Shown in pieces: positions 14,208 to 57,995 of a stretch of DNA of 64,000 bases. Position numbers and translations under genes: made by a program. The first letter of the stretch is position 1. Each line of letters opens with the position of its first letter. The notes beneath the pieces are model-generated. The model was given only the letters and a program-made list of their open reading frames with translations, made no database searches and was not told the DNA's origin. This stretch comes from Allorhodopirellula solitaria (GTDB lineage Bacteria > Planctomycetota > Planctomycetia > Pirellulales > Pirellulaceae), in contig NZ_SJPK01000009.1 of the NCBI RefSeq assembly GCF_007859855.1, forward strand, positions 124,001 to 188,000, written 5' to 3'.

Positions 14208-15689
14208 CTACGACATCAGCATGAGAGACAGCCCCGTGATCACAGCGGCGGCGATCAGGTTGAGGACCAATCCCGTGCGAGCCATCTCCTCGGTACTGAT
14301 CCCGCCGGCACCGAAGACGATCGCGTTGGGTGGTGTGGCAACAGGCAACATGAAGGCGCACGAACAACTGATCGTGCCCGGCACCATCAGCATGGCGGGC
14401 GGCAGGCCCAACTGCACGGCGAGTTCCCCGAGGATCGGCAGTAGCAACATCGCCGTCGCCGTGCTGCTGGTGATCTCGGTCATGAAGGTTACCAAGCAGC
14501 ACACTGCGAGCACGATCAACCACGTCGGCGCTCCTTCCATAAACGTCAGCTGGTGCCCAATCGCGGTGCTCAGTCCTGAGTCCTGGAACCCTCGTGCTAA
14601 AGCCATGCCACCGCCGAACATCACCAGAATCCCCCAGGGAATCTTTGCAGCCGTCTCCCAGTCCAAAAGCCGCTCACACTTTCCATCGACTCCGTTTGAT
14701 TGCCCTGCGACAGAGCCGGATGGTCGACCGGTGGCTCCGCCCGCCGGGAGCGACTCAGCATGCTCCCCACTCCGCCGACCACTCGGACAAAGAAACATCA
14801 TCAACGACGCACCGAGCGCCACCGTCGAATCACCCACCATCGCGCTATCGACGGGCAGCAGCGCCGACCAACCGCCCCCGGGTCCGGCGCGAAAGATCCA
14901 CAGCAGTGCCGTGATGAAAAAAATCATGAGCACGCGCCGCTCATTGCTCTGCATCGGACCGATCGAGGGCATCTCAATGGGCTGCATCGAAGCCACTCCG
15001 CGAGTCAACCACCACCAAATGATCGGCAGCATGACCAGCGTGATCGGCAGCCCGATCGACATCCAAGTTGCAAAGGGCATCTCATGCCCAGTCCGCTCGA
15101 AGAACTGCCCCATGAAGACGACGTTGGGCGGGGTTCCAATCGGTGTCGCCATGCCGCCCACACTCGCCGAATACGCAATACCGAGCAACAGTGGTGTGCG
15201 CAATCGGGAGTCACCGGATTGCTGCAGCACCGCCATCGCGATCGGCAGCATCATCAGCGCGGTCGCCGAATTGCTAATCCACATCGACAACACCGCCGTG
15301 GCCAGCATGAAGCCGAGCACCAATCGTTTCCCACTTGTCCCGCCGACGAGTCGCACCATCGCAATGGCGATACGGCGATGGGCACCGCTACGTTCCATGG
15401 CAGCCGATAGCAGAAACCCGCCGAGCAACAAGAGGATCACCGTGTGGCCGTAGGACGACGCGATCTCCTTGTGCCCGACGACACCGAGCAGCGGCAGCAA
15501 TACGAAGGGGACCAAACCCACGACAGCCAAGGACAAACTCTCAAAAATCCACCAGGTTGCACAGAGAACCGCAACACCGGCGCACGCACTGGCTTGCGGG
15601 GGCAAACCACCGACATAGCAGGCGAGCGAAATGACCACGGCAAGCGTGGGGCCGCCGAGCAACATCCATCGTGAGATCGCTGCGTTCAT
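14208..15689 (-). CDS. DASS/SLC13-family sodium-coupled anion symporter
   Basis: 493 residues with about 11-12 membrane helices. Both halves carry the Ser-Asn-Thr type signature of divalent anion:Na+ symporters (SNSATALMMLP near residue 140 and TSSTATAMLLLP near 417). Each is followed by a hairpin region with GTPPNVVFMGQ or ATPPNAIVFGAG. These sites bind sodium and a dicarboxylate or sulfate in the family; the substrate cannot be told here. The cytoplasmic loop around residues 305-335 is Gly/Ser/Arg-rich and longer than usual. Confidence 0.9.
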   Translation of the reverse strand: MNAAISRWMLLGGPTLAVVISLACYVGGLPPQASACAGVAVLCATWWIFESLSLAVVGLVPFVLLPLLGVVGHKEIASSYGHTVILLLLGGFLLSAAMERSGAHRRIAIAMVRLVGGTSGKRLVLGFMLATAVLSMWISNSATALMMLPIAMAVLQQSGDSRLRTPLLLGIAYSASVGGMATPIGTPPNVVFMGQFFERTGHEMPFATWMSIGLPITLVMLPIIWWWLTRGVASMQPIEMPSIGPMQSNERRVLMIFFITALLWIFRAGPGGGWSALLPVDSAMVGDSTVALGASLMMFLCPSGRRSGEHAESLPAGGATGRPSGSVAGQSNGVDGKCERLLDWETAAKIPWGILVMFGGGMALARGFQDSGLSTAIGHQLTFMEGAPTWLIVLAVCCLVTFMTEITSSTATAMLLLPILGELAVQLGLPPAMLMVPGTISCSCAFMLPVATPPNAIVFGAGGISTEEMARTGLVLNLIAAAVITGLSLMLMS

Positions 15690-21996: not shown

Positions 21997-22290
21997 GGAT
22001 TTCGCGTTCATCCGCGGAAGCTCGTGCAGTTGATTTTGCAAGGGCTCGCAATGCCTTCACCCTCTTCAAACGAAGTTTGAGGAGGGTCGGCCTCACCCAG
22101 CTGCGCCGGGAGAGGTGAATCGTTGCGAACACAGCACTCAAAATCTGAACGACCTCTCCGCTGGAGAGAGTGAGGACGTGTCCGGTAGTGTTCACTACCC
22201 TCAACCGGGCGTCGATTCAACCGCCAGCCCGTCAAACCACCGGCTCACGTGTCAAACGACCTGCGCCCACCTCTCACCCCTCGGCCAGTC
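21997..22290. other. Hairpin-rich intergenic stretch after eno
   Basis: No gene. There is an 11-12 bp near-perfect inverted repeat at about 22058-22085 (CCTCTTCAAAC/GTTTGAGGAGG) and a smaller one near 22165-22180 (CTCTCC/GGAGAG). Neither is followed by a T-run, so they are more likely dispersed repeats than terminators. Confidence 0.45.
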
Positions 22291-23874
22291 ATGCTCAACC
22301 GCACTCCGCTTCTGCTCGCACTCGCAGCCTCTCTTCACGCACCGACTAGCCTCTGGGCCGAGGCGACCGTTTCAGTCGGGCATCAATCCGAGCGGCGTGC
22401 CGACGCAAGATTCCAGATTCCCGAGATGGAATCACCCGTCCAAGGTGACGCGGGCGAAGAAGGAACATGGGCCGTGGTCTCCGGGACACCGGATCGAGCT
22501 GGCGGAGGATTGACCAAGCTCAACGATGGGCAGCTGCCCCGGTTATCGGACCAACCGAGCGAGAACTTTTTCTTTGCTCCCGCGACCGACGGTGGGCGAT
22601 TGCTGCTCGACCTAGAGCGATCGATCGAGCTCGCCGAAATTCGCAGCTACTCGTGGCACCCCAGCGAGCGGTCCCCCCAGGTCTACACGGTGTACGGCTG
22701 CGATCCGCCAGCCGAGGACCAACGCGAGCGGCAAATCGATAACGACGGCAGCTTCCAGCTTAAACCCGCTGCCGAGACAGACCCAGAGTCCTGTGGATGG
22801 ACCAAAATCGCCTCCATCAACACACGCGGCCCCAAAGTCGACCGACGGCTCCGCCCGTCGGATAATAGCAAAGTCGACCGACGGCTCCGCCCGTCGGAAA
22901 GAAACAATGCCGACCGACGGCTCCGCCCGTCGGAAAGAAACAATGTCGACCGACGGCTCCGCCCGTCGAGAGAAAACACAGCCTCCCAGCCGCTCCGCCC
23001 AGCCACTGTTGGTGGGCAGGTGGGCGTCAAAATCGCCAACAATGACGAAGATTCTCGAAGCCCTCTGGGTCGTTTTCGCTACCTGTTGTTCGAGATCCAA
23101 CCGGCTGAGCCCGGGGCCCGATTCTCCAACACGTTTTTCAGTGAGATCGACGTCTTGGAGAAGGGTGCCGCCGTCACTCCCGCCCACTCAATTGACGTCG
23201 AGGGAATCGCTACCTTCGAGATCGAAAGCGGCGAGTACGAGTTTGTCATGGATACATCTGATTGCTCAGACTTGACCCGCTGGGCGGAACAGGAATTGGC
23301 TCCTGTCGTACAGCAGTGGTACCCGAAAGTCGTCGAGCTATTGGCAAGCGACGGATACGAGGCACCGCAGAGCTTCCGCATCCACATCAGCTCGGCGATG
23401 GATGGCGTGGCAGCGACGAGCGGCACGAACGTAACCTGCTCAGCAGATTGGTACCGCCGTAATTTGCAGGGCGAAGCCAAGGGCGCCACCGTGCACGAAC
23501 TCGTCCACGTGGTCCAGCAGTATGGCAACGCGCGTCGGACCAACCCGCAGGCCAAGCGAACACCGGGCTGGGTCGTCGAAGGCATCGCCGACTACGTCCG
23601 CTGGCATTTGTACGAACCGGAATCAGTCGGTGGCGGTGTGGCTCGACGTCGGCCTTCGAGCCTGCGTTACGACGCCAGCTACCGGGACACGGCGGCGTTT
23701 CTGGCCTGGGTGATCGACGAGGGCAACCCAGACCTTCTCGCCCAGCTCAACGCGGCCGCTCGCACGGGAACCTATACCGACGCGTTCTGGAGGAAGACAA
23801 CCGGATCCACAGCCCAACAACTGTCCGACGCTTGGCATGCAGAGCTCGACCCGAAACCTGCCGCGCAGGATTGA
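22291..23874 (+). CDS. Secreted basic secretory protein (BSP)-family zinc peptidase with in-frame repeat insertion
   Basis: 527 residues from the ATG at 22291, which opens a signal peptide (LLLALAASLHAPTSLWA). The first ~230 residues look like a discoidin-type or carbohydrate-binding region (LLLDLERSIELAEIRSYSWH). The C-terminal ~200 match the BSP (PF04450) family. They contain the zinc motif HELVHVVQQYG and, downstream, TPGWVVEGIADYVRW, which together form a gluzincin-like site. Between the two lies a four-copy 12-residue repeat (VDRRLRPS...), encoded by the 36-bp palindromic array listed separately. The frame stays open across it, so the repeat is probably translated. Likely an exported metallopeptidase or glycan-bound protein. 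Confidence 0.85.
   Translation: MLNRTPLLLALAASLHAPTSLWAEATVSVGHQSERRADARFQIPEMESPVQGDAGEEGTWAVVSGTPDRAGGGLTKLNDGQLPRLSDQPSENFFFAPATDGGRLLLDLERSIELAEIRSYSWHPSERSPQVYTVYGCDPPAEDQRERQIDNDGSFQLKPAAETDPESCGWTKIASINTRGPKVDRRLRPSDNSKVDRRLRPSERNNADRRLRPSERNNVDRRLRPSRENTASQPLRPATVGGQVGVKIANNDEDSRSPLGRFRYLLFEIQPAEPGARFSNTFFSEIDVLEKGAAVTPAHSIDVEGIATFEIESGEYEFVMDTSDCSDLTRWAEQELAPVVQQWYPKVVELLASDGYEAPQSFRIHISSAMDGVAATSGTNVTCSADWYRRNLQGEAKGATVHELVHVVQQYGNARRTNPQAKRTPGWVVEGIADYVRWHLYEPESVGGGVARRRPSSLRYDASYRDTAAFLAWVIDEGNPDLLAQLNAAARTGTYTDAFWRKTTGSTAQQLSDAWHAELDPKPAAQD
22837..22968 (+). repeat. 36-bp tandem palindromic repeat, four copies, inside a CDS
   Basis: Copies begin at 22837, 22873, 22909 and 22945. 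Each has GTCGACCGACGGCTCCGCCC or a one-base variant, followed by an A-rich spacer. CGACGG and CCGTCG can pair as a 6-bp stem. The core is the same as in the array at 36250-36995, apart from one base. Confidence 0.9.
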
Positions 23875-36094: not shown

Positions 36095-36183
36095 ATCCAT
36101 CCGGCGCCGAGTTAACGAGCTGATCGGAAATGCGGTTGGGGAACCAGCTGCTTTCTGCACGTTCGACCCCGGAACCACATGCC

Positions 36184-38040
36184 ATGAAACCACTCGTCGC
36201 CACTGACGTGTCACCCACCGACCGTCCTGAACACCACGACGATTTCAGCCCAGACGAGCGGGGTCGTCGGGATACATTGTCGACCGACGGCTCCGACCGT
36301 CGTGAGAGAACAGCGCACCTCAGCTCAGACGAACGGAGTCGTCTGGCTACATTGTCGACCGACGGCTCCGACCGTCGCGAGAGAACAGCGCACCTCAGCT
36401 CAGACGAACGGAGTCGTCTGGCTACATTGTCGACCGACGGCTCCGACCGTCGCGAGGAGACAGCACACCTCAGCTCAGACGAGCGGAGTCGTGGGGATAC
36501 TTTGTCGACCGACGGCTCCGACCGGCGCGAGAGAACAGCGCACCCAAGCTCAGACGAACGGAGTCGTCTGGCTACATTGTCGACCGACGGCTCCGACCGG
36601 CGCGAGAAAACAGCGCACCCGAGCTCAGACGAACGGAGTCGTCTGGCTACTTTGTCGACCGACGGCTCCGACCGTCGTGAGAGAACAGCGCACCTCAGCT
36701 CAGACGAGCGGAGTCGTCTGGCTACTTTGCCGACCGACGGCTCCGTCCGTCGCGAGAGAACAGCGCACCCGAGCTCAGACGAGCGGAGTCGTCTGGCTAC
36801 TTTGTCGACCAACGGCTCCGACCGGCGCGAGAGAACAGCGCACCCGAGCTCAGACGAGCAGGTTCGTCGGGATACTTTGTCGACCGACGGCTCCGACCGT
36901 CGCGAGAAAACAGCGCACCTCAGCTCAGACGAACGGAGTCGTCTGGCTACTTTGTCGACCGACGGCTCCGACCGTCGCGAGAGAACAGCGCACCGCAGCA
37001 CCGCTAGCGCTGAGATGCGGCGGGTGTATGCACCGATCTCCGATCATCTTGCCGCTGTCGATGCACGGCTGCGTCGAGAGCTGCAGTCTCGCTACGAAGC
37101 GATCGCGCCGGTTCTGCGACACGGCACACAGCTCGGTGGAAAGCGATTGCGGCCCGCCCTGCTGCTGCTCTCTGCGGTCGCAACCGAGCACCACCTTGAT
37201 TCACTCGATGCACAGCCCGCCCCTGGGAACGACGGGGATACGATCCGTGATGACCACATCACGATGGCAACGGTGATCGAGATGGTGCATACCGCGACGC
37301 TGGTCCATGACGATGTCCTCGACAAGGCGGCCACACGGCGGCACACGCCCACGATCAACGCGAAGTGGGACAGCGACACCAGCATTCTGTTGGGGGACTA
37401 TCTGTTCGCCCAAAGTTTCTCGCTGGCCGCGACACTATCCTCGCCGGTGGCCTCGACGCAGGCCTGTCGCTGGGTCGGCCAAGCCGCCCAGCAGGTCTGT
37501 GAGGGTGAGCTGCGACAGATCCTCAGCCGCGATCACTTGGGGATGGACGAGCAGACCTATCTGGATATTCTGCGTGGCAAAACCGCCGAGCTGACGAGTG
37601 TTTCCTGTCGACTCGGCTGCAGCCTCTCCGGTGGCGATCCGGAGCTGGCAGCGGCCCTGAGCTGCTACGGCAACGACCTGGGGATTGCCTTCCAAATCGC
37701 CGACGATTATCTCGACCTGTGGGGCGATGCTGACGAGATTGGCAAAACGCTCGGAACGGACTTAATCCAGGGCAAGCTCACGCTGCCTCTGATCCGGCTG
37801 TTGCATAGCGGTGACGCCGCCCTCGCCGCAGAAACGCAGGCGGCGCTGCAGGCCGCCCCAGCGGAGCGGTTAGCCCGAGTCCTCCCGCTGTTGAGCAACA
37901 GTGATGCGGCAGAATATACTCGCGGCGTCGCAAATCGTTTCCGCCGTTCGGCGATCTCTGCGATCGAGCACCTCAGGCCCTCACCGGCCCTCGATTCCCT
38001 GATCGAAATCGCCCACTTCTCGGTGGCACGACGAATTTGA
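36184..38040 (+). CDS. Polyprenyl diphosphate synthase with repeat-array N-terminal extension
   Basis: The enzyme core starts near MRRVYAPISDHLAAVDARL (ATG at 37015) and is about 341 residues, a normal family length. It shows LGGKRLRPALLL, the first Asp-rich motif VHDDVLD (near 37306-37323) and the second IADDYLDLWGD (near 37699). It makes the isoprenoid chain, probably for menaquinone given the next gene; chain length cannot be read. The frame is open far upstream through ten 75-bp repeats, so the protein may start at ATG 36184 (618 residues) or 36130. If it starts at 37015 the array is non-coding leader. I use 36184 because the residues just before Met37015 look like part of a normal N-terminus, but this is unsure. 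Confidence 0.9.
   Translation: MKPLVATDVSPTDRPEHHDDFSPDERGRRDTLSTDGSDRRERTAHLSSDERSRLATLSTDGSDRRERTAHLSSDERSRLATLSTDGSDRREETAHLSSDERSRGDTLSTDGSDRRERTAHPSSDERSRLATLSTDGSDRREKTAHPSSDERSRLATLSTDGSDRRERTAHLSSDERSRLATLPTDGSVRRERTAHPSSDERSRLATLSTNGSDRRERTAHPSSDEQVRRDTLSTDGSDRREKTAHLSSDERSRLATLSTDGSDRRERTAHRSTASAEMRRVYAPISDHLAAVDARLRRELQSRYEAIAPVLRHGTQLGGKRLRPALLLLSAVATEHHLDSLDAQPAPGNDGDTIRDDHITMATVIEMVHTATLVHDDVLDKAATRRHTPTINAKWDSDTSILLGDYLFAQSFSLAATLSSPVASTQACRWVGQAAQQVCEGELRQILSRDHLGMDEQTYLDILRGKTAELTSVSCRLGCSLSGGDPELAAALSCYGNDLGIAFQIADDYLDLWGDADEIGKTLGTDLIQGKLTLPLIRLLHSGDAALAAETQAALQAAPAERLARVLPLLSNSDAAEYTRGVANRFRRSAISAIEHLRPSPALDSLIEIAHFSVARRI
36250..36995 (+). repeat. 75-bp tandem array of paired palindromes, ten copies
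   Basis: Copies begin at 36277 and every 75 bases to 36952, with a half copy in front. Each unit holds two hairpins, CGACGG/CCGTCG and CAGACG/CGTCTG. Because 75 is a multiple of three and the units lack stops, at least three frames stay open through the array, including a 318-codon frame on the minus strand. Translated with the synthase, the unit reads STDGSDRRERTAHLSSDERS plus RLATL, highly charged. Copies differ by only a few bases. Confidence 0.95.
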
Positions 38041-38084
38041 CATTCGCTGGCTCAACCACGCCCCCTCCCACTTCGAAAGTTCCC

Positions 38085-40034
38085 ATGCTTCGCTTCGGCG
38101 CCGTTTCCTATCTCAATACCAAACCGCTCATTGAAACCCTGCCGCAGCGTTTGGCCGATTGGGGCACACTCCGTTTGGACCTGCCCTCCCGGTTGGCCAC
38201 GGATCTGTCCCGAGGCGATCTCGATGTCGCTTTGATTCCGAGCGTGGAGTACTTTCGTCACAGCGAAGAGTATGAAATCGTATCCGATGCAGCGATTGCT
38301 TGTCGCGGGCCGGTATGGAGCGTGCGATTGCTCAGCCGGGTGCCGATGTCAGAGATCCAGACGCTGGCTCTGGACGAGGGCAGTCGCACCAGCGCCGCGA
38401 TGGCCCAGGTCCTGCTCTGGGAGATGCACGGGGTTCGCCCCACCACAGTCCCGTTCCCGATCGGGACCGATGCTGCCGATGTCTCTGCCGATGCTGTGTT
38501 GACGATCGGCGACCGGGCCATGCATCCGCCGCATGGCGTCTATCACGAAATCTGGGACCTCGGTGACCGCTGGTGCCGCTGGACCGAACTGCCGTTCGTC
38601 TTCGCCATGTGGGTTGCCCGCCGCGAAATCAGCCAAGATCCAGCCGTGCGAGAACGAATTGCCGACACCCTGAATGTCTGCCGCGACGAAGGCAAACAGT
38701 GTTTCGAAGCGATCGCGGTGCGGGAAGCGGCCGAGCACGGTTTGACGAACGAAGACCTGCACCGTTACTTTGCTGAAAACCTGCACTTTCAACTCGGCAG
38801 CGGCGAGCGTGCAGGACTCGAACTCTTTCGCCAGAAATCAGAGGCCACCGGCTTGATCACGCACTCCAACCCAACGACCACCACTGTGTCCAGATCCTCC
38901 TCCGTCCGTGACATCCTCGACAAAGCGGTCGCCGGCACTCGCTTGGACGATGCCGATGCCTTAGCACTGCTGCAATCCCATGATTTGGCGGCCATCGGAG
39001 CTGCCGCCGAAGCGGTCTCCCGGCAAAAGCATCCGGAGTCCTATCGAACCTACAATATCGACCGGAACATCAACTACACGAACGTCTGCACCGCCGTTTG
39101 TGACTTCTGCGCGTTCTACCGTGGCCCCAAGAGCGACGAGGGTTACGTGTTGCCCCGCGAGGTGCTGCTGCAGAAGATTCAAGAGACGGTCGATCTTGGC
39201 GGCAACCAGATCCTGCTGCAGGGCGGGCTGCATCCGCAGTTCAAACTCGATTGGTATGAGGAGATGCTCGGCGATATCAAATCCCGTTTCCCGCAAGTCA
39301 ACGTGCACGGATTCTCGCCGCCCGAACTGCATCACTTTACCAAGATGAACCGGCTGTCGATCACCGAGGTCCTGACCCGGCTCAAGGCCGCAGGGTTGGG
39401 CAGTATTCCTGGTGGCGGCGCCGAGATTCTTAACGACCGCGTCCGGGGCGAGATCACGCGGGGCAAGGTCATGACCGATGACTGGCTGGGCGTGATGCGG
39501 GCCTGGCACGAACTTGGCGGAGTCAGCTCGGCGACGATGATGTTCGGTCACGTTGAAACGCTCGCCGAACGTGTCGAGCACCTCCGCCGACTGCGCGAAC
39601 TGCAAGACGAAACCGGTGGATTCACCGCCTTCATCTGCTGGACGTTCCAGCCCGAGCATACCGAGATGAGCGAACTGCCTAAGATCGGCTCGTTCGAATA
39701 CCTGAAGATGCTGGCCGTATCACGACTCTACCTCGACAACATCCCGAATCTGCAGAGCAGTTGGGTGACTCAGGGTTTGAAAATCGGCCAGATGGCGTTG
39801 ATGTTTGGTGCCAACGATATGGGCAGCCTGATGATCGAGGAAAACGTGGTCGCCGAAGCTGGCACAGTCCACTACCTGTCCCTGCAACAGATCCGCGGGT
39901 CGATCGAGGAACACGGGTTCGAACCCCGCCAACGAGATGTGTTTTACAACCTCGTTGATCAGGAACTCGAGCAGAAAGCGATCACAGCCAACGCCGATGC
40001 CAGCGCCCGCGAACTGGTCCAGGTCTCACTGTAG
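38085..40034 (+). CDS. mqnA-mqnC: Fused chorismate dehydratase (MqnA) and dehypoxanthine futalosine cyclase (MqnC)
   Basis: Two enzymes of the futalosine menaquinone pathway in one chain of 649 residues. Residues ~1-265 are MqnA-like: LRFGAVSYLNTKPL, then ALIPSVEYFRH. Residues ~290-649 are a radical SAM enzyme with CTAVCDFC (Cys335, 339 and 342), GNQILLQGGLHPQFKLDWYE and IPGGGAEIL, typical of MqnC. A Ser/Thr linker (SNPTTTTVSRSSS) joins them. The ATG at 38085 gives a normal MqnA start. A TTG overlapping the synthase stop codon is in frame at 38037, so the two genes are probably coupled. In most genomes these are separate genes. Confidence 0.93.
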   Translation: MLRFGAVSYLNTKPLIETLPQRLADWGTLRLDLPSRLATDLSRGDLDVALIPSVEYFRHSEEYEIVSDAAIACRGPVWSVRLLSRVPMSEIQTLALDEGSRTSAAMAQVLLWEMHGVRPTTVPFPIGTDAADVSADAVLTIGDRAMHPPHGVYHEIWDLGDRWCRWTELPFVFAMWVARREISQDPAVRERIADTLNVCRDEGKQCFEAIAVREAAEHGLTNEDLHRYFAENLHFQLGSGERAGLELFRQKSEATGLITHSNPTTTTVSRSSSVRDILDKAVAGTRLDDADALALLQSHDLAAIGAAAEAVSRQKHPESYRTYNIDRNINYTNVCTAVCDFCAFYRGPKSDEGYVLPREVLLQKIQETVDLGGNQILLQGGLHPQFKLDWYEEMLGDIKSRFPQVNVHGFSPPELHHFTKMNRLSITEVLTRLKAAGLGSIPGGGAEILNDRVRGEITRGKVMTDDWLGVMRAWHELGGVSSATMMFGHVETLAERVEHLRRLRELQDETGGFTAFICWTFQPEHTEMSELPKIGSFEYLKMLAVSRLYLDNIPNLQSSWVTQGLKIGQMALMFGANDMGSLMIEENVVAEAGTVHYLSLQQIRGSIEEHGFEPRQRDVFYNLVDQELEQKAITANADASARELVQVSL

Positions 40035-57942: not shown

Positions 57943-57978
57943 GCCCATCCGCCCATCCGCCCATCCGCCCATCCGCCC
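57943..57978 (+). repeat. 8-bp tandem repeat (GCCCATCC) before an ABC gene
   Basis: Four full copies of GCCCATCC plus half a copy, ending 17 bases upstream of the GTG start of the ABC ATPase gene. Length changes here could move the ribosome site, since GAGGA follows directly. Confidence 0.9.
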
Positions 57979-57995
57979 AGAGGAACCCCATTGCC

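Follow-up and report, generated by a model that had tools for sequence, protein, structure and literature searches.

How a polyprenyl diphosphate synthase of Allorhodopirellula solitaria comes to carry ten copies of a palindromic 75-bp unit in frame ahead of its catalytic domain, and whether these copies are read as protein, is the question raised by the locus described here, which lies in a 64,000-nucleotide stretch of contig NZ_SJPK01000009.1 (the window). A forward open reading frame, 36130-38040, passes through the array and goes on to encode a polyprenyl synthetase domain (PF00348, E=3.1e-61, best stretch at residues 325-576, C-terminal of the array), and the synthase has its best named matches in Rhodopirellula sallentina (71%) and Aporhodopirellula aestuarii (69%). 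The initial annotation had placed the gene in a menaquinone context, and indeed the reading frame that follows directly, at 38037-40034, scores above cut-off for the menaquinone enzyme MqnC. The ten-copy array that it described in frame with the synthase is recovered by Tandem Repeats Finder (TRF) on the forward strand at 36245-36999, with a period of 75, 91% matches, 0% indels and 10.1 copies, a copy number that, like those of the other arrays, may be wrong through misassembly in this 62-contig assembly of one strain. Elsewhere in the window, TRF reports a perfect 8-bp tandem repeat, GCCCATCC, with 4.6 copies at 57943-57979.

The copies are in register, and each 75-bp unit consists of an inverted pair of REP-like palindromes and a locus-specific spacer. 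In most copies the first palindrome is AGACGR-loop-TCGTCT, followed 30 bp on by CGACGG-CTCCGN-CCGTCG, and the two loops are complementary to each other (CTCCGN / NCGGAG). The first and the second stem are each imperfect in three of ten copies. As RNA, a single unit folded alone forms one long hairpin with its halves pairing with each other (-30.1 kcal/mol, z = -2.3, equalled by 5 of 200 shuffles). We further note that the array is stop-free in three of six frames, two forward (including that of the synthase) and one reverse, as the same annotation had stated. This is not unusual, since shuffled units of the same composition leave a given frame open 48% of the time. At the synthase locus alone, a period divisible by three together with an open frame could arise by chance about 1 in 6 times (one in three multiplied by 48%). 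A CRISPR array, in which unique spacers separate short repeats, was considered and rejected because the spacers are near-identical copies and the whole 75-bp unit repeats.

The repeat is a member of a family dispersed over the genome. Its core 21-mer has 211 exact occurrences in this 6.8-Mb genome, on both strands (113 and 98), and is absent in exact form from all 59 other genomes searched. With up to three mismatches allowed in eight same-genus relatives, the nearest of them (G007, hereafter the sister) has 33 places against 2 for a reversed control, and the other seven have 0-3 places against 0-3 for their controls, which is background. Of 253 family members, 149 are paired with an inverted copy 30 or 31 bp away, and 104 stand without one. 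In the majority consensus of these 253 cores, the '-' half, turned round, reads GTAG-CC-AGACGG (50-80% per position) and the '+' half is headed by GTCG, the REP hairpin having a 6-bp stem and a 6-nt loop. The GTAG-side stem shows compensating pair changes, with paired cells at 0.89 against a shuffle maximum of 0.85 among 251 oriented dimers (26 distinct), a count in which dimers with both halves matching were entered in both orientations. The family accordingly displays what is expected of GTAG-tagged REPs, namely a dispersed high-copy palindrome, an unpaired GTAG or degenerate end, and inverted dimers. The cores lie largely in tandem arrays with locus-specific periods (33, 36, 45, 66, 75, 77, 78, 79/80, 84/86, 90, 112, 114, 156, 191 and others), beside single copies. 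One lone copy, within three mismatches of the core, is found in the window at 14726. The core has no stop in any of its six frames, but this was not kept as a special property, since 51% of shuffles share it.

This survey bears on two readings of the synthase array. A DNA-level or regulatory element specific to this locus, which the initial annotation had entertained, was not retained as the main reading, since the repeat occurs genome-wide; none of the tests made points to an effect on expression. An ordinary coding tandem repeat, arising by slippage alone and unrelated to any dispersed palindrome, would account for the tandem 75-bp structure and the zero indels, but it is already contradicted by the number of cores on both strands and by the inverted partners of more than half of the 253 family members, and we find it scarcely credible.

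REPs are named for being extragenic. The GTAG-tagged REP super-family was defined by Di Nocera et al., 2013 (PMC3733652), a paper that lists R. baltica with several REP families and describes heads that are degenerate at positions 2-3, for example GTMG. The family found here resembles that super-family in its short palindromes with GTAG and GTCG heads, its inverted dimers, its 6-bp stem, which falls within the 5-13 bp given there, and its clusters of units tandemly repeated with flanking DNA (PMC3733652). It differs in that its core is exact in only one of 60 genomes searched and in that none of the 13 regions examined, of 16, holds a RAYT flanked by the REP. PMC3733652 also covers REPs that lie inside genes, uvrA of unrelated bacteria being one of those named, and gives 43-82 residues as the coding length of REP clusters in Thauera and R. 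conorii. It further describes the Rickettsia RPE elements, palindromic repeats that lie in frame in open reading frames. The arrays described here are likewise in-frame palindromic repeats in open reading frames, uvrA included, but they are regular tandem arrays, amounting to about 190-250 residues where they lie within three genes and to about 295 residues in a C-terminal tail, and arrays outside genes served as the comparison for their frame signature. As in the REPINs of Pseudomonas fluorescens SBW25 (Bertels and Rainey, 2011; PMC3116915), the unit is an inverted REP pair and the tandem clusters take in flanking sequence; unlike those elements, which that study treats as extragenic and ties to RAYTs, several arrays here lie within genes, and a link to a RAYT was sought without success. 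Rhodopirellula baltica also appears in a table of prokaryotes with many satellites in PMC6749651. A literature search combining Rhodopirellula with repetitive extragenic palindrome gave no match, which is a weak negative given that PMC3733652 abbreviates the genus name of R. baltica.

Whether the synthase array is translated depends on the start codon. Three in-frame ATG codons on the forward strand are candidates: 36184-36186 (MKPLVA...), from which the synthase would span 36184-38040; 36130-36132 further upstream; and 37015-37017, which would leave the array untranslated. The first two are both present in the sister. Among 12 same-genus orthologs, an in-frame ATG stands 24-54 codons ahead of the conserved core in all 12, followed by Asp in 11, while at the position of 37015 the ATG is missing in six, one of which has TTG there; GTG or TTG codons also occur in the orthologs slightly further in, past this position. 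Because of these two counts, the long start is most likely ancestral, and the array is most likely an in-frame insertion in a variable linker. The counts were used in place of the invariant first Met of our alignment A1, which was discounted because the beginnings of its rows had been chosen by the analyst.

The placement of the array within the gene is further supported by the sister, whose synthase is 84% identical as protein, lacks the array and retains the upstream ATG and the reading frame, together with the sequence on either side of the array site. At the linker the sister reads MKPLVAADPSPTGHPQHPSPASAEM, whereas here MKPLVATDVSPTDRPEHHDD is followed by the array and then by STASAEM. 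Since the ortholog without the array keeps the ATG, the frame and the flanks, the array is probably translated as an insert of about 250 residues. The charged N-terminus of about this length that the initial annotation had made conditional on a long start is therefore the outcome that the comparative ATG evidence favours. None of the 12 same-genus orthologs read has the array; the initial annotation had suggested asking whether the closest relatives lack it.

The alternative is that the synthase starts at 37015 and that the repeat is a hairpin-rich, untranslated leader which only shapes mRNA stability or initiation. An ATG is present at this position here and in six of the 12 orthologs, and the predicted RNA fold of leader plus array is more stable than that of every one of 20 shuffles (z = -4.0). 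Against this, the in-frame upstream ATG is found in every ortholog and the downstream one in only half, and 750 bp have been kept in frame without indels; the arrays lying within UvrA, TrpE and a PKS-like gene likewise keep frame (see below). We regard an untranslated leader as unlikely, and further points on its side are taken up with the frame comparison.

If translated, the insert is predicted to be unstructured. In an AlphaFold2 model (11 sequences; mean pLDDT 58, the alignment being shallow), residues 1 to about 262 are without predicted structure at a pLDDT of about 30 and are followed by a helical enzyme. This prediction, together with a peptide that is long, charged and repeated, would suit an insert selected at the protein level as a tether, scaffold or phase-separating tail of the synthase. 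Such a role is at odds with the absence of the insert from the 12 same-genus orthologs and with the distribution of variable columns among the ten copies, which is 7/7/7 over codon positions 1/2/3. It is also at odds with the finding that the same family DNA encodes different peptides in different genes (VDRRLRPS, STDGSARR, RRAEPSVD). We consider selection on the peptide quite improbable.

The synthase is not the only gene with such an array. In the window itself, a second array of the family (36 bp x 4, 22833-22975, forward strand, found by TRF) lies in frame in a BSP-family peptidase (22189-23871, PF04450), and the sister peptidase aligns on both sides of it without REP repeats. By the same alignment of sister ortholog flanks, arrays are intragenic in TrpE (45 bp x 4), where the two domains of the protein flank the array, one on each side; in a PKS-like protein (78 bp); in a WS/DGAT-like acyltransferase (114 bp); in a cyclase-like protein (90 bp x 4); and in an acyltransferase-3 protein (AT3, 36 bp x 3), whose flank on the N-terminal side is short. 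A further array, 66 bp x 4, lies before the last third of UvrA (locus L210, 2323-5352), both flanks falling in one 912-residue sister open reading frame, and the UvrA with the array inside scores 1158 bits against an equivalog cut-off of 1147 bits. In the synthase, these six genes and UvrA alike, the flanks are conserved in relatives without the insert. A 90-bp array at C2:753727 forms a C-terminal tail and, its alignment being one-sided, was set apart from the intragenic set. A single in-frame REP copy is carried by an open reading frame on contig C22 near 45561 (L212), which looks like an HrpB helicase.

The frame behaviour of these arrays can be compared with that of arrays outside genes. 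Of 44 clusters with at least three cores including an exact one, 39 had at least two same-strand spacings and were counted as arrays: eight intragenic (the six genes and UvrA by sister flanks, plus the synthase), one C-terminal tail, 17 outside genes and 13 unplaced. All eight intragenic arrays have every spacing divisible by three, and none of their 46 spacings departs from the modal period, whereas only three of the 17 arrays outside genes have all spacings divisible by three and 44 of their 161 spacings deviate. Divisibility and uniformity together give 8/8 inside against 3/17 outside (p = 1.5e-4), array placement having been done after the arrays were seen and six intragenic cases having first been chosen because the frame was open through the array. 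Against 30 other arrays, where the modal period is divisible by three in 12, 61 of 241 spacings deviate and four combine both properties, the contrast is 8/8 to 4/30 (Fisher p = 1e-5). The period alone gives a weaker contrast (8/8 against 9/17 outside genes, p = 0.026), and the uniform spacing of the intragenic arrays could also reflect younger arrays.

A second mapping did not use the array's own frame. The 44 clusters comprise 23 further ones mapped by their flanks onto the sister, 11 left out for want of a coding-like window on one side, and ten handled otherwise. Among the 23, the flanks of 16 fall in different sister open reading frames, strands or places, one (UvrA) falls in a single open reading frame, and six gave no resolution. 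The 17 resolved clusters thus include one array in a gene, which is in frame, and no out-of-frame gene interruption. Sister orthologs were used for placement because a coding score alone proved too coarse, several flanks being coding-like on both sides but out of phase. Two arrays with open frames, C2:491457 and C2:666602, had been candidates for the intragenic set until sister alignments put both just upstream of coding starts; counted outside genes, both keep frame, which tells against a clean contrast and is in line with an untranslated leader.

Amino-acid-level constraint was sought in the codon positions of variable columns among array copies and was not found. Pooled over eight arrays (the C2:753727 tail included, the AT3 array left out), the variable columns number 28/31/40 over codon positions 1/2/3. 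As these counts and those of the synthase show no codon-position bias, and as the REP family is read in different frames across genes, it appears to be the frame and not the peptide that is kept in intragenic arrays. The missing amino-acid constraint would also fit an untranslated leader at the synthase.

The sister genome also informs the history of the arrays. By our own tally of positions, seven of 24 orthologous sites that hold an array or cluster in this genome have one decayed core, with no more than three mismatches, in the sister, the number expected over 21 intervals of 250 bp being about 0.024. In TrpE and the cyclase-like gene the sister has a four-mismatch remnant at the corresponding place. 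At the synthase site no core remnant was found in the sister, either in the list of cores within three mismatches or in the alignment. Decayed single cores and remnants at orthologous sites suggest that old single REPs multiplied where they stood once the two lineages had separated. The recent expansion proposed in the initial annotation is supported for the synthase array by the absence of the exact core from the 59 other genomes and of the array from the sister ortholog.

A RAYT-linked REPIN was also sought. The genome has 16 Y1_Tnp matches, and the REP core (up to five mismatches) is absent from the 13 Y1-transposase regions examined, leaving no RAYT flanked by a cognate REP among them. Ten Y1 proteins were scanned: for six the RAYT model is the sole match, and it stays below cut-off; the other four have IS200 as best match, and two of these four also match the RAYT model weakly, below IS200. 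Three Y1-transposase matches lie within about 5 kb of one another on contig C20 (L177), a region without a REP core, and the two proteins scanned there match the RAYT model below cut-off. Amplification together with local flank would fit recombination or replication slippage at hairpins.

The explanation that we favour, with good confidence, is a neutral or selfish REP expansion, filtered for frame, tolerated in the synthase linker and translated as a disordered insert with little or no function. A species-specific, high-copy family of REP-like palindromes, in which a hairpin headed by GTAG and one headed by GTCG stand inverted 30 bp apart, is dispersed in the genome, and many sites show tandem duplication of the dimer along with part of the adjoining sequence. 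In the synthase, the dimer sits in the unstructured N-terminal linker and has multiplied ten-fold with a period of 75 bp, or 25 codons, probably through recombination or slippage between hairpins. Frame-breaking versions would then be cleared by purifying selection on the synthase, which would spare amino-acid changes, and we infer that translation from 36184 yields a disordered insert of about 250 residues that is neutral, with little or no function of its own.

Intragenic REPs are already known; as far as the literature searched goes, the novelty here lies in how large the inserts are, in how many arrays sit in conserved enzymes, and in a frame signature that has been measured. One family provides a natural experiment, in which the same repeat has been amplified inside and outside genes and the copies inside are kept in frame. 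With its arrays one could study by what route disordered regions enter bacterial proteins, and what lets hairpin repeats multiply on the spot without an evident cognate transposase. For the broader proposal, that REP-dimer arrays are a genome-wide generator of in-frame disordered inserts, amplified after the split from the sister (UvrA, TrpE, prenyl synthase) with frame as the only filter, we put the chances at about even. If it is true, dispersed palindromes would repeatedly give rise to new repeat regions in the proteins of a bacterium.
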